Shown: one piece after another, positions 13,901 to 62,583 of the stretch
Layout of the letters: every line of letters begins with the position of its first letter
How positions within the stretch are numbered: the stretch's first letter is position 1
Assembly (NCBI GenBank): GCA_902728285.1
Contig: CACVBU010001120.1
Span: forward strand, 62,001 to 126,000
Length of the DNA stretch: 64,000 bases
Direction of reading: 5' to 3'
DNA from: Clytia hemisphaerica
Taxonomy: Eukaryota > Cnidaria > Hydrozoa > Leptothecata > Clytiidae
The notes under the pieces: model-generated
Database searches by the model: none
What the model was told of the DNA's origin: nothing
The model's input: the letters and a program-made list of their open reading frames with translations, nothing else
Translations under genes and position numbers: made by a program

Positions 13901-16900
13901 CACACCATATCTTGGTTGACGGTGGCTCGGGTGTCCAGAATAAGTAGTTTATCCCCGGGAAATTCGGTGGTCCAAAATCACGTAAAATCTCCGGGAAAAT
14001 GCGGTGGTCAAATTAGAAGGAGTATTTGAAACACACACCCATATTGGTTGACGGTGGCTCGGGCGTCCAGAATAAGTTTGTCCCGGGAAATCGGTGGTCC
14101 AAAATCAGTCAAATCTCCGGGAAATGCGGTGGTCAATTAGAAGGAGATATTGAAACACACACAACCCATCTTGGTTGCGGTGGCTCGGGTCAAATAAGTA
14201 ATTTGTCGGGGAAATTCGGTGGTCCAAAATCAGTCTCCCGGGAAAATGCGGTGGTCAAATTAGAAGGAGTTATTTGAAACACACCACCAATTTGGTTGAC
14301 GGTGGCTCGGGCGTCCAGAATAGTAATTTTCTCCGGGGAAATTCGGTGGTCCAAAATCACTTAAACTCCGGGAAAATGCGGTGGTCAAAGAAGGAATTTG
14401 AAACACACACACCAAAATCTTGGTTGACGTGGCTCGGGTGTCAGGTCGTCCAGAATAAGTAAGTTTTGTCTCCGGGGAATTCGGTGGTCCAAAATCACTA
14501 AAATCTCCGGAAAGCGGTGGTCAAATTGAAGGAGATATTTGAAACACACACACCATATCTTGGTTGACGGTGGTTCGGGCGTCCAGAATAAGTAGTTTAT
14601 CTCCTGGGAAATTCGGTGGCCAAAATCACATAAATGCCGGGAAAATGCGGTGGTCAAATTTATTTGAAACACACACCCCTAGTGACGGGGGGGTCGGGGC
14701 GTCCAGAATAAGTCTTTCCTCGGGGAAATTCGGTGGTCCAAACAACATATGAGCTAAATTCTTATAAGAATCAAATCAATAACTCTTGATTAACAGCCAT
14801 ATACCTTTCGGTAATTAGCTTTTACAAAGTAAACAAGGGACATTGCACAATATGAGCATGTTTATTTTTCTTATAAGCATCTACTTTATAGGATTCAAAT
14901 CAGTAACTCTTCATAGACATCCATAAACTTTTCGGTAATTAGTCTTACAAAGTAAACAAGGGACGGCGCATAGTACCAGCTTATTTATTTTTCCTATAAG
15001 CACCTTCTTTATAAGAATCAAATCAATAACTCCTGGTCAACAGCCATATACCTTTCGGTAATTAGTTTTTACAAAGTAAGCAAGGAACATTGCACAATAT
15101 GAGCATGTTTAATTTTCTGATAAGCATCTACTTTATAAGAATCAAATTAATAACTCTTGACAGACAGCCATATACTTTTCGGTAATTAGTTTTTACAAAG
15201 TAAACAAAGAATAAATAAGAAATGGTCACAAGGTAAGCATTTTCTTTATAGGATCAAATATATAATTCTTGATTGAAGGTAATTTTACTTTTCGGAAATC
15301 AGTTATTACAAAGTAACAAAGGGGCGGTACACAAGGTAAGTATCAGTATTTTTCTTATATAAGCATGTTCTTTATAGGAAACTGATCACTAACTTTTGGA
15401 TTAAGTGATTTACTGTTCAGTAATCAGCTATTACGAAATTCTGGGTTCCACAGGGTTACTAGTAATGGCTCGAATTTCATTCAGGTTCTAGCCTACACAC
15501 ACCAAAACGACGGCTTGTCACTGTGCCGGGTGTATACTCGGCGCCCTAGGCCCCGCAGGGTTGCTAGTAACGGCTCGAATTTCAAACAGGTTTAACCCTT
15601 TGTGTAGAAACCTGCAAATCAATAATCTTTTCTAAAGTTTTTATACTTATTCAATAGGTAAGTATCAGTATTTTTCTTATAAGCATGTTGTTTATAAGAA
15701 ACTGATCACTAACTTTTGGATTCTTTTGGATTAAGTGATTTACTGTTCAGTAATCAGCTATTACAAAATTCTGGGTTCCACAGGGTTACTAGTAATGGCT
15801 CGAATTTCAATCAGGTTCTAGCCTACACACACCAAAACGACGGCTTGTCACTGTGCCGGGTGTATACTCGGCGCCCTAGGCCCCGCAGGGTTGCTAGTAA
15901 CGGCTCGAATTTCAATCAGGTTTAACCCTTTGTGTAGAAACCTGCAAATCAACGTTCTTTTCTAAAGTTTTTATACTCATTCAATAGCTAAATGCTAATA
16001 GGATAAGCTACACACACCAAAACGACGGCTTGTCACTGTGCCGGGTGTATACTCGGCGCCCTAGGCCCCGCAGGGTTGCTAGTAACGGCTCGAATTTTAA
16101 TCAGTTTCTAGCCTACACACACCAGAACGACGGCTTGTCACTGTGCTGGGTGTATACTCGGTGCCCTAGGCCCCACAGGGTTGTTACTAACGGCTCGAAT
16201 TTTAATCAGTTTCTAGCCTACACACACCAAAACGACGGCCTATCTCCCTCCAATTTTACCACCGCATTTTCCCGGAGATTTGATCTGATTTTGGACAAGC
16301 GAATTTCCCCAGAGACAAATCAATTATTCTATACGGCCTAGCCACGGTCAACTAAAATTTGGTAAGACTGTCTTAGATATCTCCTTTCAATTTTACCACC
16401 GTATTTTCCCAGAGATTTGGTTTGATTTTGGACTAGCGAATTTCCCCAGAGATAAATCAATAATTCTCGACGGCCGAGCCACGGTCAACTAAAATTTGGT
16501 AAGAATGTCTCAAATATCTCCTTTCAATTTTACCACCGCATTTTCCCGAAGATTTGGTCTGATTTTGGACTAGCGAATTTCCCCAGAGACTAATCAATAA
16601 TTCTGGACGGCCGAGCCACGGTCAACCAAAATTTGGTAAGAATGTCTCAAATATTTCCTTCCAATGTTACCACCGCATTTTCCCGGAGATTTGATCTGAT
16701 TTTGGACAAGCGAATTTCCCCAGAAACAAATCAATAATTCTGGACGGCCGAGCCACGGTCAACTGAAATTTGGTAAGAATGTCTCAAATATCTCCTTTCA
16801 ATTTTACCACCGCATTTTCCCGGAGATTTGATCTGATTTTGGACAAGCGAATTTCCCCAGAGACAAATCAATAATTCTCGATGGCCGAGCCACAGTCATC

Positions 16901-19900
16901 TAAAATTTGGTAAGAATATCTCAAATATCTCCTTTCAATTTTACCACCGCATTTTCCCGGAGATTTGATCTGTTTTTGGACAAGAAAATTTCCCCAGAGA
17001 CAAATCAATAATTCTCGACGGCCGAGCCACGGTCAGCTAAAATTTGGTAAAGGTCCTCAATATCTCCTTTCAATTTTACCACCGCATTTTCCCGGGATTT
17101 GATCTGATTGGACAAGCGAATTTCCCCAGAAACAAATCAATAATTCTGGACGGCCGAGCCACGTCACGGTAAAATGTCTCAAGCCGTCCTTTCTTCACCA
17201 AGGCTGATTCCCCGGGATTTGATCTGATTTTGGACAAGCGAATTCCCCAGAGACAAATCATAATTCTCGATGGCCGAGCCAGGTCAGCTAAATTTGGTAA
17301 GAATGTTCAAATCTCCTTTCAATTTTACCACCGCATTTTCCCGGAGATTTGATCTGATTTTGGACAAGCAAATTTCCCCAGAGACAAATCAATAATTCTC
17401 GACGGCCGAGCCACGGTCAACTAAAATTTGGTAAGAATGCTCAATATCTCTTTCATTTTACAACACCCGCATTTTCCCCCGGAGATTTGAATCTGATTTG
17501 GACAAGCGATTTCCCAGAACAATAAAATTTTGGACGTCCGCCACGGTCCAACTGAAAATTTGTAAGAATTTCCTAAATATCTCCTTTCAATTTTACCACC
17601 GCATTTTCCCGGAGATTTGATCTTTTTGGACTAGCGAATTTCCCCAGAGAAATCAATAATTTCGACGCCTAGCCCGGTCAACTAAAATTGGTAAGAATCT
17701 CAAATATCTCCCGGAGATTTCTATTTTAGCCGGTCACTTTGCAAATATGTTCCCGAGATTTGATCTGATTTTGGACAAGCAATTCCCCAGAGACAAATCA
17801 ATAATTCCGACGGCCGAGCCACGTAGCTAAAATTTGGTAAGAATGTCTAAATATCTCCTTTTCATTTTACCACTGCATTTTCCCGGAGATGGATCTGTTT
17901 TGACAAGCGAATTTCCGAACAAATCAATAATTCTCGACGGCCGAGCCACGGTCAGCTAAAATTTGGTAGAATGTCTCAATATCTCCTTCATGTTACCACC
18001 AGCATTTTCCCGAGATTTGATCTGATTTTGGACAAGCGAATTTCCCAAACAATCAATAATTCTCGACGGCCGAGCCACATCAGCTAAAATTGGTAAGAAT
18101 TCTCAAATATCTCCTTCAATTTTACCACCGCATTTTCCCGATTTTAATGATTTTGGGACAAGCGAATTTCCCCAGAGACAAATCAATAATTCTCGATGGC
18201 CGAGCCACAGTCAGCTAAATTGGTAGAAATTCTCAAATCTCTTTTCAATTTTACCACTGCATTTCCCGGAGATTTGATCTGATTTGAACAGCGAATTTCC
18301 CAGAGACAAATCATTAATTCAAGGTCGAGCCACGGTCACTAAATTTGGTAAGAATGTCAAATATCCCTTTCTAGTTTACCACTGCATTTTCCGGAGATTT
18401 GATCTGATTTTGGACAAGCGAATTTCCCCAGAGACAAATCAATAATTCTTGACGGCCGAGCCACGGTCAACTCAAATTTGGTAAGAATGTCTTAGATATC
18501 TCCTTTCAATTTTACCACTGCATTTTCCCGGAGATTTGATCTGATTTTGGACAAGCGAATTTCCCCAGAGACAAATCAATAATTCTCGACGGCCGAGCCA
18601 CGGTCAACTAAAATTTGGTAAGAATGTCTCAAATATCTCCTTTCAATTTTACCACTGCATTTTCCCGGAGATTTGATCTGATTTTGGACAAGCGAATTTC
18701 CCCAGAGACAAATCAATAATTCTCGACGGCCGAGCCACGGTCAACTAAAATTTGGTAAGAATGTCTCAAATATCTCCTTTCAATTTTACCACTGCATTTT
18801 CCCGGAGATTTGATCTGATTTTGGACAAGCGAATTTCCCCAGAGACAAATCAATAATTCTCGACGGCCGAGCCACGGTCAGCTAAAATTTGGTAAGAATG
18901 TCTCAAATATCTCCTTTCAATTTTACCACCGCATTTTCCCGGAGATTTGATCTGATTTTGGACAAGCGAATTTCCCCAGAGACAAATCAATAATTCTCGA
19001 CGGCCGAGCCACGGTCAACTAAAATTTGGTAAGAATGTCTCAAATATCTCCTTTCAATTTTACCACTGCATTTTCCCGGAGATTTGATCTGATTTTGGAC
19101 AAGCGAATTTCCCCAGAGACAAATCAATAATTCTCGACGGCCGAGCCACGGTCAACTAAAATTTGGTAAGAATGTCTCAAATATCTCCTTTCAATTTTAC
19201 CACCGCATTTTCCCGGAGATTTGATCTGATTTTGGACAAGCGAATTTCCCCAGAGACAAATCAATAATTCTCGACGGCCGAGCCACGGTCAACTAAAATT
19301 TGGTAAGAATGTCTCAAATATCTCCTTTCAATTTTACCACCGCATTTTCCCGGAGATTTGATCTGATTTTGGACAAGCGAATTTCCCCAGAGACAAATCA
19401 ATAATTCTCGACGGCCGAGCCACGGTCAACTAAAATTTGGTAAGAATGTCTTCAAATATCTCCTTTCAATTTTACCACCGCATTTTCCCGGAGATTTGAT
19501 CTGATTTTGGACAAGCGAATTTCCCCAGAGACAAATCAATAATTCTCGACGGCCGAGCCACGGTCAACTAAAATTTGGTAAGAATGTCTTCAAATATCTC
19601 CTTTCAATTTTACCACCGCATTTTCCCGGAGATTTGATCTGATTTTGGACAAGCGAATTTCCCCAGAGACAAATCAATAATTCTCGACGGCCGAGCCACG
19701 GTCAACTAAAATTTGGTAAGAATGTCTCAAATATCTCCTTTCAATTTTACCACCGCATTTTCCCGGAGATTTGATCTGATTTTGGACAAGCGAATTTCCC
19801 CAGAGACAAATCAATAATTCTCGACGGCCGAGCCACGGTCAACTAAAATTTGGTAAGAATGTCTTAAATATCTCCTTTCAATTTTACCACCGCATTTTCC

Positions 19901-22900
19901 CGGAGATTTGATCTGATTTTGGACAAGCGAATTTCCCCAGAGACAAATCAATAATTCTCGACGGCCGAGCCACGGTCAACTAAAATTTGGTAAGAATGTC
20001 TTAAATATCTCCTTTCAATTTTACCACCGCATTTTCCCGGAGATTTGATCTGATTTTGGACAAGCGAATTTCCCCAGAGACAAATCAATAATTCTCGACG
20101 GCCGAGCCACGGTCAACTAAAATTTGGTAAGAATGTCTTAAATATCTCCTTTCAATTTTACCACCGCATTTTCCCGGAGATTTGATCTGATTTTGGACTA
20201 GCGAATTTCCCCAGAGACAAATCAATAATTCTCGACGGCCGAGCCACGGTCAACTAAAATTTGGTAAGAATGTCTTAAATATCTCCTTTCAATTTTACCA
20301 CCTGCATTTTCCCGGAGATTTGATCTGATTTTGGACAAGCGAATTTCCCCAGAGACAAATCAATAATTCTCGACGGCCGAGCCACGGTCAACTAAAATTT
20401 GGTAAGAATGTCTTAAATATCTCCTTTCAATTTTACCACCGCATTTTCCCGGAGATTTGGTCTGATTTTGGACAAGCGAATTTCCCCAGAGACAAATCAA
20501 TAATTCTCGACGGCCGAGCCACGGTCAACTAAAATTTGGTAAGAATGTCTCAAATATCTCCTTTCAATTTTACCACCGCATTTTCCCGGAGATTTGATCT
20601 GATTTTGGACAAGCGAATTTCCCCAGAGACAAATCAATAATTCTCGACGGCCGAGCCACGGTCAACTAAAATTTGGTAAGAATGTCTCAAATATCTCCTT
20701 TCAATTTTACCACCGCATTTTCCCGGAGATTTGATCTGATTTTGGACAAGCGAATTTCCCCAGAGACAAATCAATAATTCTCGACGGCCGAGCCACGGTC
20801 AACTAAAATTTGGTAAGAATGTCTTCAAATATCTCCTTTCAATTTTACCACCGCATTTTCCCGGAGATTTGATCTGATTTTGGACAAGCGAATTTCCCCA
20901 GAGACAAATCAATAATTCTCGACGGCCGAGCCACGGTCAACTAAAATTTGGTAAGAATGTCTTCAAATATCTCCTTTCAATTTTACCACCGCATTTTCCC
21001 GGAGATTTGATCTGATTTTGGACAAGCGAATTTCCCCAGAGACAAATCAATAATTCTCGACGGCCGAGCCACGGTCAACTAAAATTTGGTAAGAATGTCT
21101 TAAATATCTCCTTTCAATTTTACCACCGCATTTTCCCGGAGATTTGGTCTGATTTTGGACAAGCGAATTTCCCCAGAGACAAATCAATAATTCTCGACGG
21201 CCGAGCCACGGTCAACTAAAATTTGGTAAGAATGTCTCAAATATCTCCTTTCAATTTTACCACCGCATTTTCCCGGAGATTTGATCTGATTTTGGACAAG
21301 CGAATTTCCCCAGAGACAAATCAATAATTCTCGACGGCCGAGCCACGGTCAACTAAAATTTGGTAAGAATGTCTTCAAATATCTCCTTTCAATTTTACCA
21401 CCGCATTTTCCCGGAGATTTGATCTGATTTTGGACAAGCGAATTTCCCCAGAGACAAATCAATAATTCTCGACGGCCGAGCCACGGTCAACTAAAATTTG
21501 GTAAGAATGTCTCAAATATCTCCTTTCAATTTTACCACCGCATTTTCCCGGAGATTTGATCTGATTTTGGACAAGCGAATTTCCCCAGAGACAAATCAAT
21601 AATTCTCGACGGCCGAGCCACGGTCAACTAAAATTTGGTAAGAATGTCTCAAATATCTCCTTTCAATTTTACCACCGCATTTTCCCGGAGATTTGATCTG
21701 ATTTTGGACAAGCGAATTTCCCCAGAGACAAATCAATAATTCTCGACGGCCGAGCCACGGTCAACTAAAATTTGGTAAGAATGTCTCAAATATCTCCTTT
21801 CAATTTTACCACCGCATTTTCCCGGAGATTTGGTCTGATTTTGGACAAGCGAATTTCCCCAGAGACAAATCAATAATTCTCGACGGCCGAGCCACGGTCA
21901 ACTAAAATTTGGTAAGAATGTCTCAAATATCTCCTTTCAATTTTACCACCGCATTTTCCCGGAGATTTGATCTGATTTTGGACAAGCGAATTTCCCCAGA
22001 GACAAATCAATAATTCTCGACGGCCGAGCCACGGTCAACTAAAATTTGGTAAGAATGTCTCAAATATCTCCTTTCAATTTTACCACCGCATTTTCCCGGA
22101 GATTTGATCTGATTTTGGACAAGCGAATTTCCCCAGAGACAAATCAATAATTCTCGACGGCCGAGCCACGGTCAACTAAAATTTGGTAAGAATGTCTTCA
22201 AATATCTCCTTTCAATTTTACCACCGCATTTTCCCGGAGATTTGGATCTGATTTTGGACAAGCGAATTTCCCCAGAGACAAATCAATAATTCTCGACGGC
22301 CGAGCCACGGTCAACTAAAATTTGGTAAGAATGTCTCAAATATCTCCTTTCAATTTTACCACCGCATTTTCCCGGAGATTTGATCTGATTTTGGACAAGC
22401 GAATTTCCCCAGAGACAAATCAATAATTCTCGACGGCCGAGCCACGGTCAACTAAAATTTGGTAAGAATGTCTTCAAATATCTCCTTTCAATTTTACCAC
22501 CTGCATTTTCCCGGAGATTTGATCTGATTTTGGACAAGCGAATTTCCCCAGAGACAAATCAATAATTCTCGACGGCCGAGCCACGGTCAACTAAAATTTG
22601 GTAAGAATGTCTCAAATATCTCCTTTCAATTTTACCACCGCATTTTCCCGGAGATTTGATCTGATTTTGGACAAGCGAATTTCCCCAGAGACAAATCAAT
22701 AATTCTCGACGGCCGAGCCACGGTCAACTAAAATTTGGTAAGAATGTCTCAAATATCTCCTTTCAATTTTACCACCGCATTTTCCCGGAGATTTGATCTG
22801 ATTTTGGACAAGCGAATTTCCCCAGAGACAAATCAATAATTCTCGACGGCCGAGCCACGGTCAACTAAAATTTGGTAAGAATGTCTCAAATATCTCCTTT

Positions 22901-25900
22901 CAATTTTACCACCGCATTTTCCCGGAGATTTGATCTGATTTTGGACAAGCGAATTTCCCCAGAGACAAATCAATAATTCTCGACGGCCGAGCCACGGTCA
23001 GCTAAAATTTGGTAAGAATGTCTCAAATATCTCCTTTCAATTTTACCACCGCATTTTCCCGGAGATTTGATCTGATTTTGGACAAGCGAATTTCCCCAGA
23101 GACAAATCAATAATTCTCGACGGCCGAGCCACGGTCAACTAAAATTTGGTAAGAATGTCTCAAATATCTCCTTTCAATTTTACCACCGCATTTTCCCGGA
23201 GATTTGATCTGATTTTGGACAAGCGAATTTCCCCAGAGACAAATCAATAATTCTCGACGGCCGAGCCACGGTCAACTAAAATTTGGTAAGAATGTCTCAA
23301 ATATCTCCTTTCAATTTTACCACCGCATTTTCCCGGAGATTTGATCTGATTTTGGACAAGCGAATTTCCCCAGAGACAAATCAATAATTCTCGACGGCCG
23401 AGCCACGGTCAAGCTAAAATTTGGTAAGAATGTCTTAAATATCTCCTTTCAATTTTACCACCGCATTTTCCCGGAGATTTGATCTGATTTTGGACAAGCG
23501 AATTTCCCCAGAGACAAATCAATAATTCTCGACGGCCGAGCCACGGTCAACTAAAATTTGGTAAGAATGTCTCAAATATCTCCTTTCAATTTTACCACCG
23601 CATTTTCCCGGAGATTTGATCTGATTTTGGACAAGCGAATTTCCCCAGAGACAAATCAATAATTCTCGACGGCCGAGCCACGGTCAACTAAAATTTGGTA
23701 AGAATGTCTCAAATATCTCCTTTCAATTTTACCACCGCATTTTCCCGGAGATTTGATCTGATTTTGGACAAGCGAATTTCCCCAGAGACAAATCAATAAT
23801 TCTCGACGGCCGAGCCACGGTCAGCTAAAATTTGGTAAGAATGTCTCAAATATCTCCTTTCAATTTTACCACCTGCATTTTCCCGGAGATTTGATCTGAT
23901 TTTGGACAAGCGAATTTCCCCAGAGACAAATCAATAATTCTCGACGGCCGAGCCACGGTCAACTAAAATTTGGTAAGAATGTCTCAAATATCTCCTTTCA
24001 ATTTTACCACCGCATTTTCCCGGAGATTTGATCTGATTTTGGACGAGCGAATTTCCCCAGAGACAAATCAATAATTCTCGACGGCCGAGCCACGGTCAAC
24101 TAAAATTTGGTAAGAATGTCTTCAAATATCTCCTTTCAATTTTACCACCGCATTTTCCCGGAGATTTGATCTGATTTTGGACAAGCGAATTTCCCCAGAG
24201 ACAAATCAATAATTCTCGACGGCCGAGCCACGGTCAACTAAAATTTGGTAAGAATGTCTCAAATATCTCCTTTCAATTTTACCACCGCATTTTCCCGGAG
24301 ATTTGATCTGATTTTGGACAAGCGAATTTCCCCAGAGACAAATCAATAATTCTCGACGGCCGAGCCACGGTCAGCTAAAATTTGGTAAGAATGTCTCAAA
24401 TATCTCCTTTCAATTTTACCACCGCATTTTCCCGGAGATTTGATCTGATTTTGGACAAGCGAATTTCCCCAGAGACAAATCAATAATTCTCGACGGCCGA
24501 GCCACGGTCAACTAAAATTTGGTAAGAATGTCTTAAATATCTCCTTTCAATTTTACCACCGCATTTTCCCGGAGATTTGATCTGATTTTGGACAAGCGAA
24601 TTTCCCCAGAGACAAATCAATAATTATCGACGGCCGAGCCACGGTCAACTATCAACTAAAATTTGGTAAGAATGTCTCAAATATCTCCTTTCAATTTTAC
24701 CACCGCATTTTCCCGGAGATTTGATCTGATTTTGGACAAGCGAATTTCCCCAGAGACAAATCAATAATTCTCGACGGCCGAGCCACGGTCAACTAAAATT
24801 TGGTAAGAATGTCTCAAATATCTCCTTTCAATTTTACCACTGCATTTTCCCGGAGATTTGATCTGATTTTGGACAAGCGAATTTCCCCAGAGACAAATCA
24901 ATAATTCTCGACGGCCGAGCCACGGTCAACTAAAATTTGGTAAGAATGTCTCAAATATCTCCTTTCAATTTTACCACCTGCATTTTCCCGGAGATTTGAT
25001 CTGATTTTGGACAAGCGAATTTCCCCAGAGACAAATCAATAATTCTCGACGGCCGAGCCACGGTCAACTAAAATTTGGTAAGAATGTCTCAAATATCTCC
25101 TTTCTATTTTACCACTGCATTTTCCCGGAGATTTGATCTGATTTTGGACAAGCGAATTTCCCCAGAGACAAATCAATAATTCTCGACGGCCGAGCCACGG
25201 TCAGCTAAAATTTGGTAAGAATGTCTCAAATATCTCCTTTCAATTTTACCACCGCATTTTCCCGGAGATTTGATCTGATTTTGGACGAGCGAATTTCCCC
25301 AGAGACAAATCAATAATTCTCGACGGCCGAGCCACGGTCAACTAAAATTTGGTAAGAATGTCTCAAATATCTCCTTTCAATTTTACCACTGCATTTTCCC
25401 GGAGATTTGATCTGATTTTGGACAAGCGAATTTCCCCAGAGACAAATCAATAATTCTCGACGGCCGAGCCACGGTCAGCTAAAATTTGGTAAGAATGTCT
25501 CAAATATCTCCTTTCAATTTTACCACCGCATTTTCCCGGAGATTTGATCTGATTTTGGACGAGCGAATTTCCCCAGAGACAAATCAATAATTCTCGACGG
25601 CCGAGCCACGGTCAACTAAAATTTGGTAAGAATGTCTCAAATATCTCCTTTCTATTTTACCACTGCATTTTCCCGGAGATTTGATCTGATTTTGGACAAG
25701 CGAATTTCCCCAGAGACAAATCAATAATTATCGACGGCCGAGCCACGGTCAACTATCAACTAAAATTTGGTAAGAATGTCTCAAATATCTCCTTTCAATT
25801 TTACCACCGCATTTTCCCGGAGATTTGATATGATTTTGGACGAGCGAATTTCCCCAGAGACAAATCAATAATTCTCGACGGCCGAGCCACGGTCAACTAA

Positions 25901-27055
25901 AATTTGGTAAGAATGTCTCAAATATCTCCTTTCAATTTTACCACTGCATTTTCCCGGAGATTTGATCTGATTTTGGACAAGCGAATTTCCCCAGAGACAA
26001 ATCAATAATTCTCGACGGCCGAGCCACGGTCAACTAAAATTTGGTAAGAATGTCTCAAATATCTCCTTTCAATTTTACCACCGCATTTTCCCGGAGATTT
26101 GATATGATTTTGGACGAGTGAATTTCCCCAGAGACAAATGAATAATTCTCGACGGCCGAGCCACGGTCAACTAAAATTTGGTAAGAATGTCTCAAATATC
26201 TCCTTTCAATTTTACCACTGCATTTTCCCGGAGATTTGATCTGATTTTGGACAAGCGAATTTCCCCAGAGACAAATCAATAATTCTCGACGGCCGAGCCA
26301 CGGTCAACTAAAATCTGGTGTGTCTGTGTGTCCTTAATGTTTTGCATATTTATTTCATGTTTTTATTAGGGAGAATAGACTTATGGAAAAAATAGTCATA
26401 TTTTTTTGAATTTTATCTCCCTAATATTTTTTCAAAATCGATTTCCAATATTTAGGAGATAAATCTTGTCAAACTCAAAGTATAATTCTGGTTGACCACC
26501 GCATATTCGCCTGTGTACTGGACATAGCATGGTGTGATATTTCGGGACATTTGCGATCGTTATCCTAAAACAGCTATGTAATTTGTAAAATATCAGTGGA
26601 TGAAATTGATGGACCCCTCAAAGTGTTCGAAATTATGTAAAGTTTTGGATTTTTTGAGGTTTCGAAGTTTGTTGAATATAATATGTTTCAGAGTTACATC
26701 AATGAGGATATTTTGTAAATGAAGTATTTTGTGGAGCATGTAAAAATATTTTATTTTAATCGGCTTTTGGAAAAGTCCCAAGGCCAAGAGAGTTAAAAGT
26801 GAGAATATGTCGAGTCTATGTGAAAAAATTGAAAATGAAAATAAGAAAGGAACCTTCTGTGCCCCTTGAGGTGGAGTATGCACAATATTTGCATATTTAT
26901 TTGCTTCGGGTGATTTTGAAGGGAAGTAGAATTTTATTTTCATACTATGACCGTTAAACGTAATCCAAATCATCCTTACCAACAAGAGAAATTGCACGGA
27001 CAAAAAGACATTGATGTAACATCACCAGAACGCACATTGCCTTGGTGTTCACCAT
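7917..27055 (-). CDS. Single-pass membrane protein with C-terminal PDZ-ligand-like ESLI (nine exons, 279 aa)
   Basis: Unrecognised protein. Coding exons, in gene order: 26980-27055, 11925-12231, 11572-11631, 11380-11469, 11011-11050, 10026-10111, 9778-9825, 8341-8420, 7917-7969. They total 840 nt, and every junction keeps phase without a stop. Exon 1 encodes a signal peptide (residues 1 to about 23, MVNTK then a hydrophobic stretch). Residues 24-97 are a short, polar, His-rich ectodomain with one NAS sequon at residue 51. Residues 99-122 are a membrane helix (AWLVYTSAVPTVVIFVVCVI and on). The cytoplasmic part is basic after the helix (KKKKSK, KDDKNRKR) and acidic near the end (EYDEND). It ends in NWEESLI, a class I PDZ-ligand pattern resembling the EERLI end of Crumbs. 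The fifth exon has a weak donor (GTCTAA) and is the least certain. Intron 1 is 14.7 kb and holds the satellite arrays. Confidence 0.72.
8560..8690 (+). repeat. Dispersed repeat, partner copy at 43.8-43.93 kb
   Basis: Blocks such as ACAGAGGAT, TATTGAGC.GTCTAGGAGTC and TTTTTGGAYYAAGTGYGTTA recur in the same order on the minus strand at about 43,780-43,930, inside a NUP133 intron. The open frame 8598-8927 (109 codons) lies across this repeat and is not treated as a gene. Confidence 0.5.
9198..9292. repeat. Minisatellite of CTTCGTCGGGGAAAA
   Basis: Four imperfect copies of a 15-bp unit, bordered by an inverted pair ATCGGGGAAAAC / GTTTTCCCCGAT. It lies in an intron of the membrane-protein gene. 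Confidence 0.8.
12485..12592 (-). other. Possible alternative terminal exon or exon relic
   Basis: Just downstream (minus strand) of the satellite array, a pyrimidine-rich tract and AG at about 12,590 open a frame. Using the second AG gives NFILPGVILVGYWMMWYFIK, then a polar tail ending SSLLR and a stop. The first AG gives a different 36-codon frame. Both would be in phase with exon 1 of the surrounding gene. The membrane-like frame is interrupted by a TGA if read from the first AG. It could be a cryptic exon, a decayed exon of another gene, or chance. Confidence 0.25.
12600..14750. repeat. Satellite array 1: 137-bp monomer, about 15 copies
   Basis: Head-to-tail monomers with landmarks TTGGTTGACGGTGGCTCGGG, CCGGGGAAATTCGGTGGTCC and CTCCGGGAAAATGCGGTGGT. 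Adjacent landmarks at 13,091, 13,228 and 13,365 give a 137-bp period. Monomers at the left edge (12,600-12,900) are divergent. Copies from about 14,030 on carry many 1-5-base deletions. The open frames here (14,026-14,752) are repeat translations. The array lies in intron 1 of the membrane-protein gene. Confidence 0.95.
14751..15440. repeat. Satellite family B, about 124-bp monomer
   Basis: Five or six diverged copies marked by TAAGAATCAAATCAATAACT, CCTTTCGGTAATTAG and TTACAAAGTAAACAAGG. A single further piece lies at 15,655-15,770. The same family in the same orientation forms the array at 63,515-64,000. Confidence 0.9.
15441..16245. repeat. Satellite family C, about 105-bp monomer
   Basis: Repeats with CTAGTAACGGCTCGAATTTC, CTACACACACCAAAACGACG and CCGGGTGTATACTCGGCGCC. 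They include a roughly 335-bp higher-order duplication (15,445-15,640 compared with 15,777-15,970) that carries a family B fragment. The array abuts satellite array 2 directly at about 16,240. The open frames at 15,716-16,341 are repeat translations. Confidence 0.9.
16246..26330. repeat. Satellite array 2: same 137-bp monomer, inverted, about 73 copies
   Basis: This is the reverse complement of the array 1 monomer: CCACCGCATTTTCCCGGAGA, CAAGCGAATTTCCCCAGAGA, GACGGCCGAGCCACGGTCAA. The landmark at 18,901 recurs at 19,038 (137 bp); 138-bp variants carry TCTTCAAAT. From about 18,400 to 26,300 the copies are almost identical, with small shared variants (CAGCTAAAA, GACGAGCG, TCAACTATCAACT) that hint at higher-order blocks. 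From 17,045 to 18,370 the copies are riddled with short deletions. No gene is present inside. Confidence 0.97.
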
Positions 27056-39014: not shown

Positions 39015-39086
39015 GGGCCTGTCCGGGAGTCGAACCCGGGACCTCTCGCACCCGAAGCGAGAATCATACCACTAGACCAACAGGCC
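39015..39086 (-). tRNA. tRNA-Pro (anticodon CGG)
   Basis: The full 72-nt cloverleaf reads on the minus strand. The acceptor stem GGCCTGT pairs with ACAGGCC, with discriminator C. The D arm is TGGTCTAGTGGTATGA, the anticodon loop is TTCGGGT (anticodon at 39,052-39,054), and the B-box is GGTTCGACTCC. There is no intron and CCA is not encoded, as expected for a eukaryotic nuclear tRNA. It appears intact and stands alone in repeat-rich DNA. Confidence 0.95.
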
Positions 39087-54576: not shown

Positions 54577-56715
54577 TTACATGAGTGAGCAGTTGCTATT
54601 GTCTGCATTGACCAAAAAAGTGATTTCTTTTTCACCAACATCTTTCAATAATGTACCTCTATTGAACCTGTTCTTCTTCATAGTCACGTGACCTTCCCCT
54701 TCCAATTCTCGCTGGACGCCCTCACAAAGGGTTGCGATAGTGTCATAATCATAATATCGAATGAGGTGGCTTTTACGTTGAACTTCTTCACCTTTTCGTT
54801 TGATTAGCAGTAAAACTTTCTTGTTAAAGTCGACAGGGAAGACATATTGGAACCCAGTCTCCCAGATCTGTACATGATCAGGTTCACCTAGATAGCTACC
54901 AGCGACCATCAAAGAAGCAGGGATCCCTGACCTCTGACTGACCATTTCTTTGAGGTCAACAACCGTGTCTGTTTCGCACACTTTAAGATCCATGTGCAAA
55001 CCGTCAAGAAAAACACAATTGATGAAAAGCTCTACTTCCTTGCTTGGTTTAACGACCAGATTGAAAGTGAGAGATTCTTCATGGTGGCTCAGCGAAGTGA
55101 GATGATTCGAGTCTGACAATTCGGCGTTTTGATAGAAAATCATTTGCAAGTGAGGAGGCATCCGTTTGACTTTATAAATCTGATCTTTCAAATCTTTGAT
55201 CGTTCGCGCCGTGATCAAAGAAAGATCGATGGAGAACTGACCAGTCAGAAAATTAATATTGGCATTTTTCAAGTACTTGATTGCGTGTTTTTTGCAAAAT
55301 TCTTTCATATCCTCTCTGATATTAGGTTTAACAGCTAGTGTGACGACGAAATTCTCCTCAATTGAACCGTCACTGAACATCAAAGCCAACCTATCCTCCG
55401 CCAAAAATGCATCTTTCAGTTTTTTCTGCTTGTGAAAAAGACTGATACAATCTGCCGCTAAATTTGGGCAGCGATCGGAAATTACTTTAATAAGTGGTTG
55501 CCTTTCGTTGAATTTGGATAAAGAGATATCGAAAAGGACGGCGTCGGTGTGCGGATGTTTCACAATGACGGGGCGCATTCGACGGATACGATATTGCTCC
55601 GGTGTCCATAGCAACCCCGTTGCCCCATCGTCCACTTGCACGGATAGATTAACTTTGAACGGAGCTGAAAGATTGTGTTCCCTCAACAGTTTTGCCAGCT
55701 CATTGTGAAAGACTCTCCTGTTGTCGATAGTGAGATATTGTTTTGATTGTGGTATTTCTAAAGAATCTTCGATGAACTCGTTTACAGTCTTCCCCACTTC
55801 TTCATGATAAAAGTATTCCGCTTCACGTTCATTGTCGAAACTGGTCAAATGGACTGTTGGCATTGTTCTTATATTGTTCTGAAGGTAAAAAGAGTTCAAG
55901 TTCTCATCTTGCGTTGGAAAGACGCGCAATTGGACAATCTTAGGCTCGGGTGAATGGTAACGCATTTTACCAGGGAAGTTTTCACTTGAAATGACCTTCC
56001 CATTGCATACCAACTCTTGTTCTTGGCAGGGAATTTGATGGATACTTTCAATCCACGATTTCATGGTAGATAAACTGATGTGACCAACGTCTAATAGAGG
56101 ATACTCAACAGCGTTAGTATCTACGTCAATCTGTGGAATAAGTAATTGAACATGTGGTAGAGTGTAAAAACGCCTTCCTTCGCGGTCTAATTCATAATAC
56201 TTCTCTATAAGACCTAAGGTCAAGTATTCACAATCGAGAAGCAAATCAGCTATTAATTGGTCTTCGTTCAACACGATGCGATCATCCAGCAAAAATACAA
56301 CATTATCTAGTCTTGGAGTTCGAATCAGTTTCTGATACTCCTGCCTCAGATCTGATATAGTTTTTTCGCTGTCCCCTCCTGCTACGAATTCACGATCTTC
56401 AAGCTCAAGCCATGGAATATCAACTCGACCAGAAGGTCCCTCATTCATTGAAACTCGTTTTCGTTCATTCCGAATCAATGAAATGTCCAAAGAAAGAGCT
56501 TTCAAATCAATATCTTCTGTGAAGCGATTTTTATAAAGTTCCCCATAAGAGTTTTCGTCAACAACGTTATCTCCATGTTTAAAAGTTCGGTCTTCTAGTT
56601 GAATTTTGAATCGCTTTTGGATGTTGTCTTTCAGTTTTTGAAGAGAGTCAACATAATACCAATAAAAGAATGATGTAACATTATCACCAAAATCCACCAC
56701 GATGTGATTTCTCAT
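54577..56715 (-). CDS. Intronless multi-ubiquitin-like-fold protein, 712 aa
   Basis: The frame could open earlier at a TTG (56,742), but the first ATG is at 56,713-56,715, giving 712 residues. The chain divides into about eight ubiquitin-like segments of 75-100 residues, each starting with a beta-hairpin pattern followed by a helix-like T.(V/I)..LK..(I/V) stretch. Rough ranges: 1-75, 76-165, 170-260, 265-355, 355-460, 460-555, 555-640 and 640-712. The clearest is around TARTIKDLKDQIYKVKRMPPHLQMIFYQN. Segments are far apart in sequence, unlike tandem polyubiquitin, and the C-terminus (NCSLM) lacks Gly-Gly, so it should not be processed into ubiquitin. A likely role is a non-conjugating scaffold or decoy, but that is inference. 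The gene ends 170 bp outside the left end of the big transposon and is not part of it. Confidence 0.65.
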   Translation of the reverse strand: MRNHIVVDFGDNVTSFFYWYYVDSLQKLKDNIQKRFKIQLEDRTFKHGDNVVDENSYGELYKNRFTEDIDLKALSLDISLIRNERKRVSMNEGPSGRVDIPWLELEDREFVAGGDSEKTISDLRQEYQKLIRTPRLDNVVFLLDDRIVLNEDQLIADLLLDCEYLTLGLIEKYYELDREGRRFYTLPHVQLLIPQIDVDTNAVEYPLLDVGHISLSTMKSWIESIHQIPCQEQELVCNGKVISSENFPGKMRYHSPEPKIVQLRVFPTQDENLNSFYLQNNIRTMPTVHLTSFDNEREAEYFYHEEVGKTVNEFIEDSLEIPQSKQYLTIDNRRVFHNELAKLLREHNLSAPFKVNLSVQVDDGATGLLWTPEQYRIRRMRPVIVKHPHTDAVLFDISLSKFNERQPLIKVISDRCPNLAADCISLFHKQKKLKDAFLAEDRLALMFSDGSIEENFVVTLAVKPNIREDMKEFCKKHAIKYLKNANINFLTGQFSIDLSLITARTIKDLKDQIYKVKRMPPHLQMIFYQNAELSDSNHLTSLSHHEESLTFNLVVKPSKEVELFINCVFLDGLHMDLKVCETDTVVDLKEMVSQRSGIPASLMVAGSYLGEPDHVQIWETGFQYVFPVDFNKKVLLLIKRKGEEVQRKSHLIRYYDYDTIATLCEGVQRELEGEGHVTMKKNRFNRGTLLKDVGEKEITFLVNADNSNCSLM

Positions 56716-57225
56716 GTTTGTGTTATTTTTAACTAAAACCAAAAATGTTCAGTCAGATATTATTTCAAAGTTCAACGAAATTATCTTTAACCTTCAACTT
56801 CCTCTTGTAAACTCAAGAGTTGAAAACAGGAGTTCCTTATAGTTCATCAAGTAGAAAGATTTTTGCTTCCCCTTTAAACCTGTATGGTGGCCGAGCGCTG
56901 CCAAGTGATTTTTTTTCAATTTTCTCACTAAAAAATTAAAACGAATAAAATGAATTCAACTTGTAATCTATTTTCGTTCATTTTCATTTTTGTGGCGATT
57001 ACTTTCAATTTAGAATCAAAAATATATTCGATTCAATTCAATTTCAGTTTTGTTTGAAAATGATTTTCAATTCGAATAGGACTTTTGGCTATTGCTCAAA
57101 ACTGAGTATACTTCAAAACAACCTATGTGGAATTTCCCAATGGACAAGGGAAAGTCCCGTTCAACCTATAAAATAAATATTCGACAGGACGCGAGCTGTT
57201 ACTTTCTATTCTTTCTTATGATAAA

Positions 57226-59179
57226 ATGGAGGGAAGTTGGCCCGATAATTTCAATCTTAAAACAGATCTTGTAAAGTATGTGAAGCAAAATTTGAAAAGA
57301 GACGAAGTCTTGGACTATGTTCAACGAGATTATCCTATGTACAGATGGAGCTTGAGAACCTTGGACAGAAGACTGAGGTTTTTTGACATATACTACCACG
57401 ACTTTTCCCAAAATGTAGAAGAGGTAGAAAATATAATACGTGAGGAACTGACGGGACCAGGGAGATTGCTAGGGTATCGTGCTATGCATCTAAAATTACG
57501 ACAAAAATATGATGTCAAAATTCCACGTGATCACGTGTACGAAATTATGCACAAAATCAATCCAGAGCTTTTGGAGGAGCGACGACCCTGTTTCAAGAAA
57601 AAGAGAAAGAAAACTCACTTCGTCACTAAAGGGCCTGATTGGGTCTTTTCACTTGACGGGCACGACAAATTAATGGGTTATCAAAACTCAACATTCCCTT
57701 TGGCAATATATGGCTGCATGGACACCGCAAGCAGAAAAATGATGTTTTTAAAAGTTTGGGTGACAAATTCAAAACCCGAGGTTGTTGGTAGATGGTATAC
57801 CGAATTTCTACTTGATAACCAAATTGTGCCCGATTATTTGAGAATGGATAAAGGTTCAGAGACAACCATTATGGCACAAATTCACTGTCATTTAAGAGCA
57901 GGTCATGGAGATTTAGAAGACGTAGTAGAATCAGTTATATTTGGTCCATCTACATCTAATCAGGTAATAATGAAACTTGTAATTCAAATGCGTTTTTCTT
58001 TTCAGGAGCAATAAAACTTTATGTTTCTATATTCTATGCTGGATAAATATACTATGTACTGTGTTTAAAATGATAAAATCTCTATCATAAAAATTTTGAA
58101 GCAATAAAATCTTTTCTAAAATTTAAACTTTAAAAAACGTAAACAAACGTAAAAAACGTAAAAAGACCTTTTTCTTGTCCTACCAATATGATCATAATAG
58201 GCCAACGACAAACACAAGAAAATAGTAGAAGAGTAGAACTCTAACTACGAAGAGTATATAGGAATAGCAACCTCTAGTTCTACGATTTAATTTTTTCTAC
58301 AGATAGAACGCTGGTGGAGGGAACTTCACGATCGACTGGAAAAGTTCTTCAAAGTTGGTCTTTGCTGGTTAAAAGAGGAAAACCACTACGACCCGCACTG
58401 TGACGAGGACAGGTTAGTTAGTTAGCCAAATCTAAAACTTCAATTCAAAATAATACTTAAGCCATGCCATAATGTCAATGATACAAAAATATTGAAAGAC
58501 ATATTATTAGGCCTATGGTTGGTTTCAGACCCACCCTCTCGATAAGCTATGTAAATAGAAAAACTAAAAATATAAACGTTTTTAATAAAAGCAAAAGTGT
58601 AAAATATATCCTATCTTTAGTGGAATAAAAATTAAACCGCTGAATTTTTATTTAGAGATATGTTGGCTTTTATAATGATTCCAATAATTCAAAGACATTT
58701 GGACGAATTCAAAGACTTGATATGGAACAGCCACAGAATCAGACACCAAAAGAATACTTATATGGCAGATGGTGTTCCAAACCACATGTATGACTTCCCG
58801 AGAAGATACTCGATGGAACAATGTGGTGAGTACTTTCAAAAATTGGCTCAGAGAATTTTTTCAGATTCGATTCTTATGAAATAAAAATATCACAACAAAA
58901 TAAACTTTTATCAATAAAAAATAACATCTAGAAAATCAGTAGAATAATTTGACTGATTAATTTTCCACCAAAAATAAGAACGTATCTATATTTATTGTAG
59001 GAAAACCACTCGACGTAGACAAGCTTGACCAAGCAGTTCAAATTACAGACGTTATGAATTATGGAAATGATTTTCTCAGCCCAGACCAACGAAATAATTA
59101 CGAACAAATTGTAAATAACGTTGTTACAGAAAAAAATTATGTTCAGTGCTATCTCGAGCTTAAATATAGTCAAATATAA
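57226..59179 (+). CDS. Integrase-type DDE transposase (four exons, 398 aa)
   Basis: Exons 57226-57963, 58303-58412, 58656-58825 and 59001-59179 join in phase to 398 residues and a stop; all borders are GT/AG. The likely role is cutting and joining the ends of the surrounding transposon. The N-terminal third has helix-turn-helix character (residues 26-50, then LGYRAMHLKLRQKYDVKIPR at 82-101, much like the GYR motif of bacterial IS3 transposases). A basic stretch KKKRKK (124-129) may be a nuclear localisation signal. The catalytic core shows D144 (FSLDGHD), D208 (LRMDKGSE) and E248 (NQIERWWREL), a DDE triad with 39 residues between the last two, as in retroviral-type integrase cores. No reverse transcriptase or Gag is nearby, so it is not a retroelement. 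The first ATG in frame is used. Nothing looks broken. Confidence 0.85.
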
Positions 59180-59611
59180 CGACGAAAAATATATCTTTAA
59201 GTCTCTCATTTATTTTATAGCAATATATTTTGCAGGTCTATTGACCTCTATCATTTACTTCTACCATCTTCAAGATAATAATTTCAATGGACATAAAAGC
59301 TCCCTGGGAATTCTCTAGCCAAAGTATCTTAAATTTTAGGGTTTTAAAGTTTAAAAAATTAGCCACTTTCAGGGATCATCCAGATAAAACGTGCATAATT
59401 AAGACTAATTAATTAACATAATTAAGAAAGCCCCCGGCTAGTACTTACTAGTACCTAATTTTTCTATATTCCACTTTTAGAAGCAAGTAATATATACCTT
59501 ATAAAAAACTAACAAGGTAACTATGAACAGAGCTCAACTAAAATGTTATCAAATACAACAAGAGAAATCTTTTAAATAAAGCAGTTGAACATACCAAAAA
59601 CAAATAACCAA

Positions 59612-60973
59612 TTATAAAAATGAAGAAACGTTTGAATGGGGTGGTTGCTTCAAGCCAATCATTTTACAAAACCTGTTACAAACATGCCCTTCCATAAACA
59701 TATCAATGGCAGCCTTAGAAAGATTGCCTAAATTGAAGTTTAAACGACTCTGTTGTATGGCATTTGAACTCGTAGCAATTTCTGGATCATAAAGCTTGTA
59801 GCCAGAACCCTGTATGTCGACAAGCATAAATTTTTCATTTGATTTTACATGAGAATAGTGTGCCAGACATTGGGCCTTCAACTCTCTTTCAAGGTTACTG
59901 GCATCACCATGGAGAATCTTTCCATCGTTATTAATAAATTTAACAAATTCACCGTCAACAAATTCTTCCACCATAACACAATCTTTCTCACCATTAGCTT
60001 TTACCATGGTGCCAAAATAAGCACGATTATATTCAAAGAATTCTCCAAAATCACCAGCAACATTCTTTTGAATGCACAATTTTTTCAAGCTTGATGCAAT
60101 ATTCTTTGCTAGAGCATGGGTCTGAATAGCCTTTTTTGCTAGTGTCTCCTTTGTTTCCTTCTCACAAACTACCTTGTTGACTTCTTCCATAGTTGTAATA
60201 ACTTGCGGTAGGAAGGTTTTCACAACAAATTTTTCTTTCGAAGATTGGTTGGTAGCTTCAAAAACCTCACGGAACCCACCTTTGGTCAAGGGAGTTTCTG
60301 ATAAATCAAATTTTTGGATTATTGGAAAAGACCATTCTTTGTTGACTAGGTTGATTTCCTGAATCTCAATTGTAACAGGAGGTTTTGCCATTGAAGAGAT
60401 TGCAGTTCCAAATTTCATCATGTCAGTTATTGACAAACTTTTAGGATATGACACAGGAGGGGGCCTAGGGGATAAAGCCTTTGACAATGTTGGTAATGCT
60501 GATGACGACAAGTCTTTCTTTGATTCATAAGGCTTTGGTCGAGATGGCATTTTGTCAAAATATTTTCCAATTGATATGGATGGAGTCATCGGGACAAATC
60601 TTACAAAAATTGTTTTGAAGTCTTTTATCTGTGTTATCTTAGTACACGATGGTCCATTTTGTCCTTGCAAAATATCACACTTTTCGTTTTCTTTCAATTG
60701 ATGTCGGAAATGAGAAGTACATGCATCAATTAAATTTTTAATAGACATGCTGTTGAAAGGAAAATTTACAAATTCTTTGGAGTCTTTTTTCTTGTATTTC
60801 ATAGCATCACCAGTGGGTTTGCTTGCCAGTAGCTGTACAACAAACTCACCCTCAGATACAATATTTGAGCCAAGGCCTGCACCAGGATCGCTCTTTGCAT
60901 TTTTAGTACTGCCTCCTTGTCTTTTGTTTTTCAATGCTTGTGCACGTTCTTTCCATAACCTTTTGTCAGCCAT
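59612..60973 (-). CDS. Alpha-kinase (atypical Ser/Thr protein kinase), 453 aa
   Basis: Residues about 215-442 form an alpha-kinase (MHCK/EF2K-type) domain: GGFREVF (232-238), VVKTF with the ATP-binding Lys252, MVEEFVDGEFVKF (334-346), AHYSH (371-375), VDIQGSGYKLYDPEI (385-399, catalytic Asp386, Asp396), LGNLSKAAI (415-423) and the zinc-binding H430/C432/C436 in GHVCNRFC. All key positions seem present, so it is probably active. The N-terminal 200 residues are basic, then Pro/Ser-rich, and unrecognised. The reading frame is uninterrupted, and TTTTTTAG sits directly before the ATG, indicating a 5' untranslated exon upstream. The gene lies wholly inside the transposon, converging with its integrase. 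A kinase is not needed for transposition, so cargo or host manipulation is possible. Confidence 0.88.
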   Translation of the reverse strand: MADKRLWKERAQALKNKRQGGSTKNAKSDPGAGLGSNIVSEGEFVVQLLASKPTGDAMKYKKKDSKEFVNFPFNSMSIKNLIDACTSHFRHQLKENEKCDILQGQNGPSCTKITQIKDFKTIFVRFVPMTPSISIGKYFDKMPSRPKPYESKKDLSSSALPTLSKALSPRPPPVSYPKSLSITDMMKFGTAISSMAKPPVTIEIQEINLVNKEWSFPIIQKFDLSETPLTKGGFREVFEATNQSSKEKFVVKTFLPQVITTMEEVNKVVCEKETKETLAKKAIQTHALAKNIASSLKKLCIQKNVAGDFGEFFEYNRAYFGTMVKANGEKDCVMVEEFVDGEFVKFINNDGKILHGDASNLERELKAQCLAHYSHVKSNEKFMLVDIQGSGYKLYDPEIATSSNAIQQSRLNFNLGNLSKAAIDMFMEGHVCNRFCKMIGLKQPPHSNVSSFL

Positions 60974-61029
60974 CTAAAAAATCGAAAAAGTGAATGAATT
61001 TACATTTTTCTTCAAATTTCTTGCTCAAA

Positions 61030-61185
61030 TACCATGGTAATTATGTCCCTTGAGACATTTAAAATGATTTTTTTTCATGAATAGAGGGCAGTTTTAAAAA
61101 AACCTCTACTGGGAGTTATCACCATGGCAATAATTTCAAAACAATACAAGTGATGTTCGTAACACGTAATTTATGAAAAGGTCTA
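61030..61185. mobile_element. Decayed MITE, relative of 32,826-33,009
   Basis: It shares TGTCCCTTGAGACATT, CAAGTGATGTTCGTAA and ACGTAATTTATGAAA with the element at 32.8 kb; its left end is lost or diverged. It lies in the presumed 5' intron of the kinase gene. Confidence 0.6.
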
Positions 61186-61199
61186 TAATAATATCAGTT

Positions 61200-62198
61200 G
61201 ACTCTGGTCGACTAAATTACTTTGAGCATACAAACTTTTTATCAAGCAGAAACTCTTGCGAAAAACACCATAATTTGCAAATGAACTATTTTACCTATTA
61301 TTTTATAACTTGTAGTAATTTAACACAACTTGACTGAGTGTAGATATTTTAACTACTTAGTCTTTTAGCATTTTCTTCAGGAAATTTAAAAATGTTTTCT
61401 TCATACTACTCTTTTTTTATAAGAATCAGCAATTTTTTATGGAGGCTTAACCGTTCTTATTTTTAGACACATTATTGACACTTATTTTTGATAGAATTAT
61501 TCTATAACTTCTATTATAAAGAAAGAACAATGCTAAAAAATGCTAAGAAATAGGAGTACTTTTAGAACAACCCCCAGGCCTTCCACATAGTACTACACAC
61601 TAAGGGGGAAGGGGAGGGTCGATCAAAAATGTATACACAAAAACAATTTTTGGCCCTTTTTGCATGTAAAATTGGGTTAAATAAAGAATGAATAGAGTGA
61701 ATTGTTACCCTGTTCTCGTGAAATTCTGCAAATAGTAAATAGAACACGAAGACTCTGGGATAAGGTGTACATATCTGCTGAATGCTTAATGGGACACTTA
61801 TCTCACCAGACGATTTGTGCTTTAATTTTTTAGGTGGGGGGGGGGGCTTAATGGAAAAAGTACGTACTAACCAGCAGGGGGTATTGGCAAATACACAACG
61901 CTTGCGTACATTGAGGGAAGGGGTACTCAATTTTTGACATCTTAGGACAGCCCCCCCCCTCCTTTAGCCTGGAATGGTGTATTTTCAAGCAAATTAAGGG
62001 TCAAAATAGTTTAGAGAAAAAAGTCTAAAATGCCTCAACTTTCAGGATGATAGCAATTTGAGCTGAAATTTCCAAAGAACAGCCAAGCACAACAAACAAG
62101 TGGGGATTGTCAGGCTAGAACACTTCTTTCTGACACTCTCCTTCACACTTCATCATACAATTGTTCCTCTCTGTTATGTGAGACTGTGAAAAACTTAC
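61200..62198. other. Non-coding interior of the transposon
   Basis: Presumed first intron of the kinase gene. It holds a fragment like the tail of the 144-bp core repeats (TTTTATAAGAATCAGCAA, about 61,415) and C/G-rich low-complexity stretches (61,560-61,970). The minus-strand frame 61,562-61,930 has no recognised motif. Confidence 0.5.
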
Positions 62199-62295
62199 CT
62201 TCGAGTCTGTCTTCTTCAACCAGTTGGCCAGAGGGAAAGAAACGTGCATATGTGCAAAGAAAATTTGCAGAGCGGAATCGGGAAATCGAGAAATG
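62199..62295 (-). other. Likely 5' untranslated exon of the alpha-kinase gene
   Basis: The minus strand reads GACTCGAAG followed by GTAAGTTTTTCAC, a strong donor at 62,198. It would splice to the acceptor directly before the kinase ATG (60,974). The exon start is unknown, but it must lie in or beside the right inverted repeat, implying that the transposon end supplies the promoter. Confidence 0.45.
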
Positions 62296-62583
62296 AGGTT
62301 TTAATCAATAGCCAAAGTGTTTTGAGCAATGGCCAAAAGTTCAAATCGATTTGACTTTTAAAAAAATTGAAAACAAAATCGATTTGAACTTGAATGATAA
62401 TATTAATTGATTGTATTGTAATTTTAATTCGATCGCAAAATTGTTTTCAATCTGAATCTGATTCGCTTTTAATCTTAAATTGAATTACTTTTTTGTTTGT
62501 TTGTAGAATGAGAAAAAAATTATCTTTTAATGTGAAAATTGAAAAAAAATCATTTGGCAGCGCTCGGCCACCATAAACCTGTA

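Follow-up and report, generated by a model that had tools for sequence, protein, structure and literature searches.

The 64,000-nucleotide stretch of the genome of the hydrozoan Clytia hemisphaerica analysed here (assembly GCA_902728285.1, contig CACVBU010001120.1, positions 62,001 to 126,000 of the forward strand; hereafter the window, in whose coordinates all positions are given) contains a complete DNA transposon of 5,693 bp at 56883-62575. The element carries two convergent genes, a four-exon integrase of the DDE type and an alpha-kinase, and is assigned below to the IS3EU elements. Its features are as follows.

56877-56882, no strand: left copy of the target-site duplication, AACCTG, exact only at a length of six with the ends read as TATGG..CCATA
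56883-56936, plus strand: left terminal inverted repeat (TATGGTGGCCGAGCGCTGCC...), 54 nt, 93% complementary to the right end
57226-57963, plus strand: integrase exon 1, with a helix-turn-helix (HTH)-like region, D144 and D208 (profile match, alignment and splice model)
58303-58412, plus strand: integrase exon 2, starting just before E248 (IERWW; GT-AG intron and 20-row alignment)
58656-58825, plus strand: integrase exon 3 (splice model)
59001-59179, plus strand: integrase exon 4, with the stop codon TAA at its end (splice model)
59612-60973, minus strand: main coding exon of the alpha-kinase, 453 codons and a stop (open reading frame, ORF; PF02816 over residues 231-436)
62199-62249, minus strand: 17-codon exon that is probably the first of the kinase coding sequence (GT-AG intron; similar to the N-terminus of the public protein P0121)
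62522-62575, minus strand: right terminal inverted repeat (...GGCAGCGCTCGGCCACCATA), pairing with 56883-56936
62576-62581, no strand: right copy of the target-site duplication, AACCTG, its register set by comparing the ends of five copies

The original prediction, made from the letters of the window, had described a complete eukaryotic DNA transposon pairing an IS3-like integrase with an alpha-kinase, and this description is supported. Its matching terminal inverted repeats are present as 54 nt at 93% complementarity, beyond which a looser, gapped inverted match reaches about 220 bp inwards at the left end and 257 bp at the right (~57102 and ~62319). A 20-bp terminal core, TGGTGGCCGAGCGCTGCCAA, occurs twice in the window with at most three mismatches, exclusively at the two ends of the element, and in none of 100 shuffled sequences. 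The predicted inner repeat blocks in inverted order were likewise recovered: 57067-57102 pairs with 62319-62354, and the part at 57084-57102 pairs a second time, with 62298-62316. The borders, first placed at 56885 and 62573, move outwards to 56883 and 62575, since four other insertions assign the terminal TA on each side to the element.

Target-site duplication and other copies

When the start of the element is set at TGG, the direct repeat TAAACCTGTA stands on both flanks, and it had been taken for an exact 10-bp duplication. Because this repeat begins and ends with TA, the same letters can be read as a duplication of 6 bp (AACCTG), 8 bp or 10 bp; several registers thus fit at the window site, and the size of the duplication has to be settled from other copies. 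All five copies with both ends paired have TATGG..CCATA termini and an exact 6-bp duplication: the window element (5,693 bp, AACCTG), C768 (6,271 bp, CAGGTC), C523 (4,918 bp, CTCTAC), C628 (4,914 bp, CTTATG) and C314 (4,754 bp, GTCTAG). Their flanks differ, which marks them as independent insertions. A 10-bp duplication fits the window alone and fails in the four other paired-end insertions, and the 8-bp register fits the window and C768 and fails in C523, C628 and C314. The 10-bp duplication was therefore an artefact of register, and the true size is 6 bp.

Right ends were sought in five copies (C504, C523, C628, C432 and C314), three of which yielded paired ends; these three (C523, C628 and C314) had been picked for having both genes and are uninformative on the association between termini and integrase. 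In the end reading of these chosen copies, C432 had no recognisable left end and C504 no recognisable right end, and end pairing failed for the copies on C780, C575, C69 and C101. The hexamer CACCAG forms the six bases outside the element at three ends of different insertions (C207, C421 and C432; L023, L024 and L051), a recurrence that may reflect target preference or chance.

When the genome was searched with the left 251 bp as the query, six distinct loci emerged (C771, C768, C101, C193, C575 and C69), several of them decayed. Integrase sequence is enclosed at all six, so that termini never associated with the integrase, the case held out against the original prediction, were not what the search found; kinase sequence is present at five of the six (not at C101), partly as fragments only. 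The C768 locus (L009) is a second full-length copy at a different site, 98.5% identical to the window element over 5,569 aligned positions. Exon 1 of its integrase carries frame-breaking indels, and its kinase frame is still open; the two kinases are separated by 5.5 synonymous and 5.5 non-synonymous changes, with a ratio of non-synonymous to synonymous rates (dN/dS) of 0.26 that is based on 11 changes, too few to prove selection. This copy also has 679 extra bases between the integrase and kinase genes. The integrases of the C193 and C101 copies are interrupted by stops. These two decayed copies (L011 and L010, respectively) have a common left flank, with the right-end block inverted in L011; either one segment was copied once the element had inserted, or the assembly includes two haplotypes of the locus. 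Elsewhere, integrases that are identical or nearly so at sites with different left flanks (e.g., C504, C523 and C628) point to recent movement.

The integrase

The integrase of the window comprises 398 residues in an intact frame, with GT-AG boundaries at all three introns. It matches the Pfam integrase core PF24764 (expect value, E, 1.4e-20), as do 20 of 20 aligned members, and it has a weak match to HTH_21 below the cut-off of that model; no zinc HHCC integrase domain appeared among Pfam matches at E up to 1. Weak matches to the NCBIfam models of IS481 (5 of the 20 members, best 5.9e-6) and IS3 (4 of the 20, best 8.9e-5) remain below the curated cut-offs where these are shown. Residues D144, D208 and E248 are invariant across the 20-row alignment and, judging from their setting, probably constitute the catalytic triad; a D..D..E pattern is present in 79 of the 92 listed homologues of at least 340 residues. 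The GT-AG introns, the PF24764 match and the invariant acidic residues bear out the predicted four-exon, IS3-like DDE integrase.

A predicted structure of the relative P0002 (AlphaFold; mean predicted local distance difference test score, pLDDT, 86.8) was compared with solved structures by Foldseek, which returned 22 chains at E up to 0.001, among them TnsB, retroviral integrases, MuA, IstA and the ISCth4 transposase, with E between 4.7e-5 and 1e-3 and low template-modelling (TM) scores over the whole chain. The integrase profile gave no match at E up to 1 against the sequences of solved structures.

The alpha-kinase

Two genes between the ends, an integrase and an alpha-kinase, were predicted and found, the kinase gaining the probable small first exon at 62199-62249. 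Its PF02816 match has an E of 8.9e-32, and a profile of 14 kinases aligns with solved kinase domains, namely a "transient receptor potential-related protein" (3.8e-29) and myosin heavy chain kinase A (2.4e-26). Among the 108 listed homologues, which include incomplete sequences and were scored by pattern, DxQG is present in 100, the VK-type motif in 89, GNL..HxC..C in 83 and GxFxK(Y/F)xNN in 56; the motif residues presumably include catalytic and zinc-binding ones. A public C. hemisphaerica protein, P0121, matches the kinase at 99% over its whole length, and the C768 kinase carries the same five residue differences from that of the window as does P0121. With residues 40-200 as the sole query, the single hit among 181 candidates was the Clytia copy, although a CDIL..GP.C-type motif of this region is present in 78 of the 108 kinase hits.

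Between the genes, on the integrase strand, lies one short listed ORF of 65 codons that overlaps exon 4. Polinton/Maverick elements are defined by their polymerase and capsid genes; apart from the integrase and the kinase, no ORF longer than 122 codons lies within the 5.7 kb of the element, and membership in that group was rejected.

Linkage of integrase and kinase across the genome

Searched at the protein level, the 417-Mb genome yielded 150 matches to the integrase and 103 to the kinase, which were reduced to 138 and 79 loci, respectively, by merging overlapping or adjoining pieces by hand; of the first-look candidates, 150 of 311 were scored in the search for integrases and 93 of 178 in that for kinases, which makes these genome counts lower bounds. 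Fifty-two of the 79 kinase loci have an integrase no more than 10 kb away (47 at a limit of 5 kb and 54 at 20 kb), compared with a chance expectation for the 10-kb linkage of about 0.57 loci under uniform placement, a model that ignores transposon clustering. The linkage is concentrated among relatives of the window integrase: a kinase lies within 10 kb of 48 of the 62 integrases at 43% identity to it or more, versus 2 of the 76 below 43%, with the dividing line drawn after the list had been inspected. Using the PF02816 profile as the query (113 matches, merged to 100 loci), a kinase was found near 48 of the 62 close and 3 of the 76 distant integrases; because this query gives the same contrast, the contrast does not merely reflect divergence of other kinases from that of the window. 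The 76 distant loci (e.g., C75, C334, C419, C421, C624 and C899) include many long open frames and several equal-scoring copies, almost without kinase neighbours, and perhaps represent a kinase-free IS3EU-like group in the same genome.

The 52 linked kinase loci fall into three layouts, with 25 convergent, 14 having the kinase downstream on the same strand and 13 having it upstream on the same strand. On a tree of 28 of the 30 fetched integrase loci (23 different sequences; two loci with pieces shorter than 200 residues were dropped), these layouts cluster, with five changes compared to a shuffled mean of 12.0, and near-identical copies add to the clustering. Kinase pairing persists beside integrases down to about 44% identity to that of the window, in all three layouts, and one IS3EU clade appears to have kept the kinase as a partner over a long time. 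That it has been retained next to strongly diverged integrases and through several gene orders speaks for a function.

Among public sequences, integrase and kinase hits fall on contigs of equal size in five cases (1.04 expected from jitter), four of them over 5 kb (0.02 expected), in a test that covered the best 120 of 511 integrase hits. Two of the four larger contigs are Mb-sized, where sharing means little, and the Clytia pairing of P0006 with P0123 was first noted on this coincidence alone; the fifth contig, at 2,268 bp, could not accommodate both genes, and that coincidence was attributed to chance. Scans of viral contigs (with the integrase, an integrase alignment and a kinase alignment) and of prokaryote genomes confirmed no relative, within the limits of short patterns.

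Placement among IS3EU elements

According to PMC10045372, TA..TA termini are constant among complete IS3EU families, which usually show 6-bp duplications; their DDE transposase is related to those of IS3 and IS481 and lacks the HHCC motif. The Clytia element shows TATGG..CCATA ends and exact 6-bp duplications in five of five paired-end copies, a transposase with an IS3/IS481-like core and invariant D/D/E residues, and a weak HTH_21 match in place of a zinc domain before the core. The combination of TA..TA ends, 6-bp duplications and an IS3/IS481-like transposase identifies it, with high confidence, as a complete IS3EU member in which integrase and kinase are paired. The element is probably autonomous.

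The closest description is that of the TET+ IS3EU families of rust fungi, which, according to PMC12730594, have 6-bp duplications, inverted repeats longer than 30 bp, TAYGG..CCRTA ends and, in all families, a TET/JBP gene between oppositely oriented transposase and alpha-kinase genes. The window element has the same kind of ends, repeats and duplications and the same opposite orientation, which genome-wide is found in 25 of the 52 linked kinase loci, the other 27 being on the same strand as the integrase. It differs in its cnidarian host and in having only the 65-codon ORF between the genes on the integrase strand, with no ORF the size of a TET/JBP gene; the likeness drawn here is one of described features. 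The integrase-alpha-kinase pairing is thus already on record in fungal IS3EU (PMC12730594), and the statement of the original prediction that no described family has such a combination is unsupported, as the corrected ends fit IS3EU (PMC10045372). Alpha-kinase genes are also tabulated at 79 and 39 in two compared fungal genomes (PMC4469406). The Repbase IS3EU elements as summarised in PMC10045372 share the TA..TA ends, the usual 6-bp duplication and the DDE transposase without HHCC; the word "kinase" does not occur in the main text of that paper. A literature search on alpha-kinase, transposase and DNA transposon found the fungal study alone (PMC12730594), and animal cases may have been recorded elsewhere, Repbase reports being outside its scope.

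Related groups were compared through the same source (PMC10045372). GingerRoot, which groups with IS3EU at 99% bootstrap, likewise has 6-bp duplications and mostly TA..TA ends, and differs in having been described from clubmoss. IS481EU has a related transposase, in keeping with the weak IS481 matches of 5 of the 20 relatives, whereas its duplications of about 4, 15 or 25 bp led to its rejection. Ginger1 and Ginger2 were rejected on duplications of 4-5 bp versus 6 bp, and Mutator-like elements on the 9-11 bp given for them in the original prediction and on a MuDR-type transposase versus PF24764.

Role of the kinase and alternative explanations

In the mechanism that we propose, the integrase-type DDE transposase would bind the TATGG..CCATA ends, cut the element out and insert it with a 6-bp staggered cut of the target, presumably by cut-and-paste chemistry. 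The alpha-kinase is the usual second gene of an IS3EU clade rather than chance cargo, and its most likely role would be to promote transposition through phosphorylation of the transposase or of host factors of repair, the cell cycle or silencing. That the kinase has some role in transposition or in escape from silencing is likely, given its persistence beside the integrase. The fuller proposition, that it is an ancient functional component of one entire clade of IS3EU elements in animals and fungi, which promotes transposition by phosphorylating the transposase or the silencing or repair machinery and has been kept through repeated reshuffling of gene order, is advanced tentatively, as a possibility that falls somewhat short of even chances.

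Several points weigh against these conclusions, beginning with the clustering of transposons, the late choice of the 43% line and the few changes behind the kinase dN/dS, each noted above. At the 10-kb limit, a kinase is missing beside 14 of the 62 close integrases and an integrase beside 27 of the 79 kinase loci; the 52 linked kinase loci correspond to 50 integrases, two of which have two kinase pieces each, and pairs with gaps of 6.7-9.5 kb (C797, C662, C504, C548 and C522) may be different elements joined. Of the 100 PF02816 loci, 51 lie near an integrase and 49 do not, some of the latter probably being host genes. Integrase and kinase identities in five presumed pairs are not correlated (Spearman 0.25, p 0.49). 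The window integrase matches the NCBI IS3 model with an E of only 0.0053 (16.1 bits, cut-off 160), and its match to the IS630 model is nearly as good (E 0.0085, far below its cut-off); widening the alignment to 32 relatives leaves the E of the triad nearly invariant rather than invariant. A search with the left flank returned the flank itself and partial matches only, with no empty site, and the IS3EU placement relies on ends, duplication and domains.

Among the alternatives, the one that survives best is a narrower form of the proposition above, in which the kinase would act on the host as an anti-silencing or anti-defence factor and not as a regulator of the transposase. It would be in line with the TET/JBP dioxygenase that stands beside the kinase in fungal TET+ IS3EU and is thought to aid escape from methylation-based silencing (PMC12730594); the same data fit phosphorylation of the transposase equally, and this narrower form appears rather unlikely. 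Less probable still is a passive passenger or captured host gene without a role in transposition. The close integrases without a kinase nearby would agree with it, as would the C768 copy, in which the kinase has stayed open despite a frame-broken integrase exon 1. A passenger would, however, be expected to decay, yet the pairing persists to about 44% integrase identity and in three layouts, the kinase motifs are largely conserved, and the same pair is reported in fungi (PMC12730594). A new superfamily with 10-bp duplications and TGGTGG..CCACCA ends has almost nothing left in its favour: its register is exact at the window site, with TAAACCTGTA on both sides, but fails in every other paired-end insertion, where 6 bp with TA..TA fits, as in the IS3EU ends described in PMC10045372. 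Equally far-fetched is membership in the Ginger, Polinton/Maverick or Mutator-like groups, which the integrase-like fold suggested by the structure model and the 6-bp duplications of Polintons would allow, but which the PF24764 match, the absence of an HHCC domain from Pfam matches at E up to 1, the shorter Ginger duplications (both duplication sizes from PMC10045372) and the lack of visible room for a polymerase or capsid gene contradict.

Surroundings

The transposon lies about 135 bp upstream of the first listed start codon of a 721-codon ORF with ubiquitin-like domains (PF00240, 3.6e-15; 54577-56742, minus strand). Elsewhere in the window, a satellite array at 16241-26319 consists of about 74 copies of a 137-bp unit with 94% matches and coincides with a block at 16-26 kb in which the GC skew is strongly negative. 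Another array with a period of 137 and about 14 copies occupies 12825-14660. A tRNA gene is present at 39015-39086 on the minus strand (Rfam, 56.8 bits).

Implications

Protein kinases are unusual as transposon cargo, and the alpha-kinase is a known IS3EU partner that has received little study. What is new here is how large and persistent the kinase-bearing clade is, with dozens of integrase-kinase pairs in one animal genome. The analysis removes a supposed new superfamily and leaves a sharper question, namely what a transposon gains from a kinase, for which the kinase-paired integrases in three layouts, beside many related ones with no kinase nearby, provide a natural comparison.

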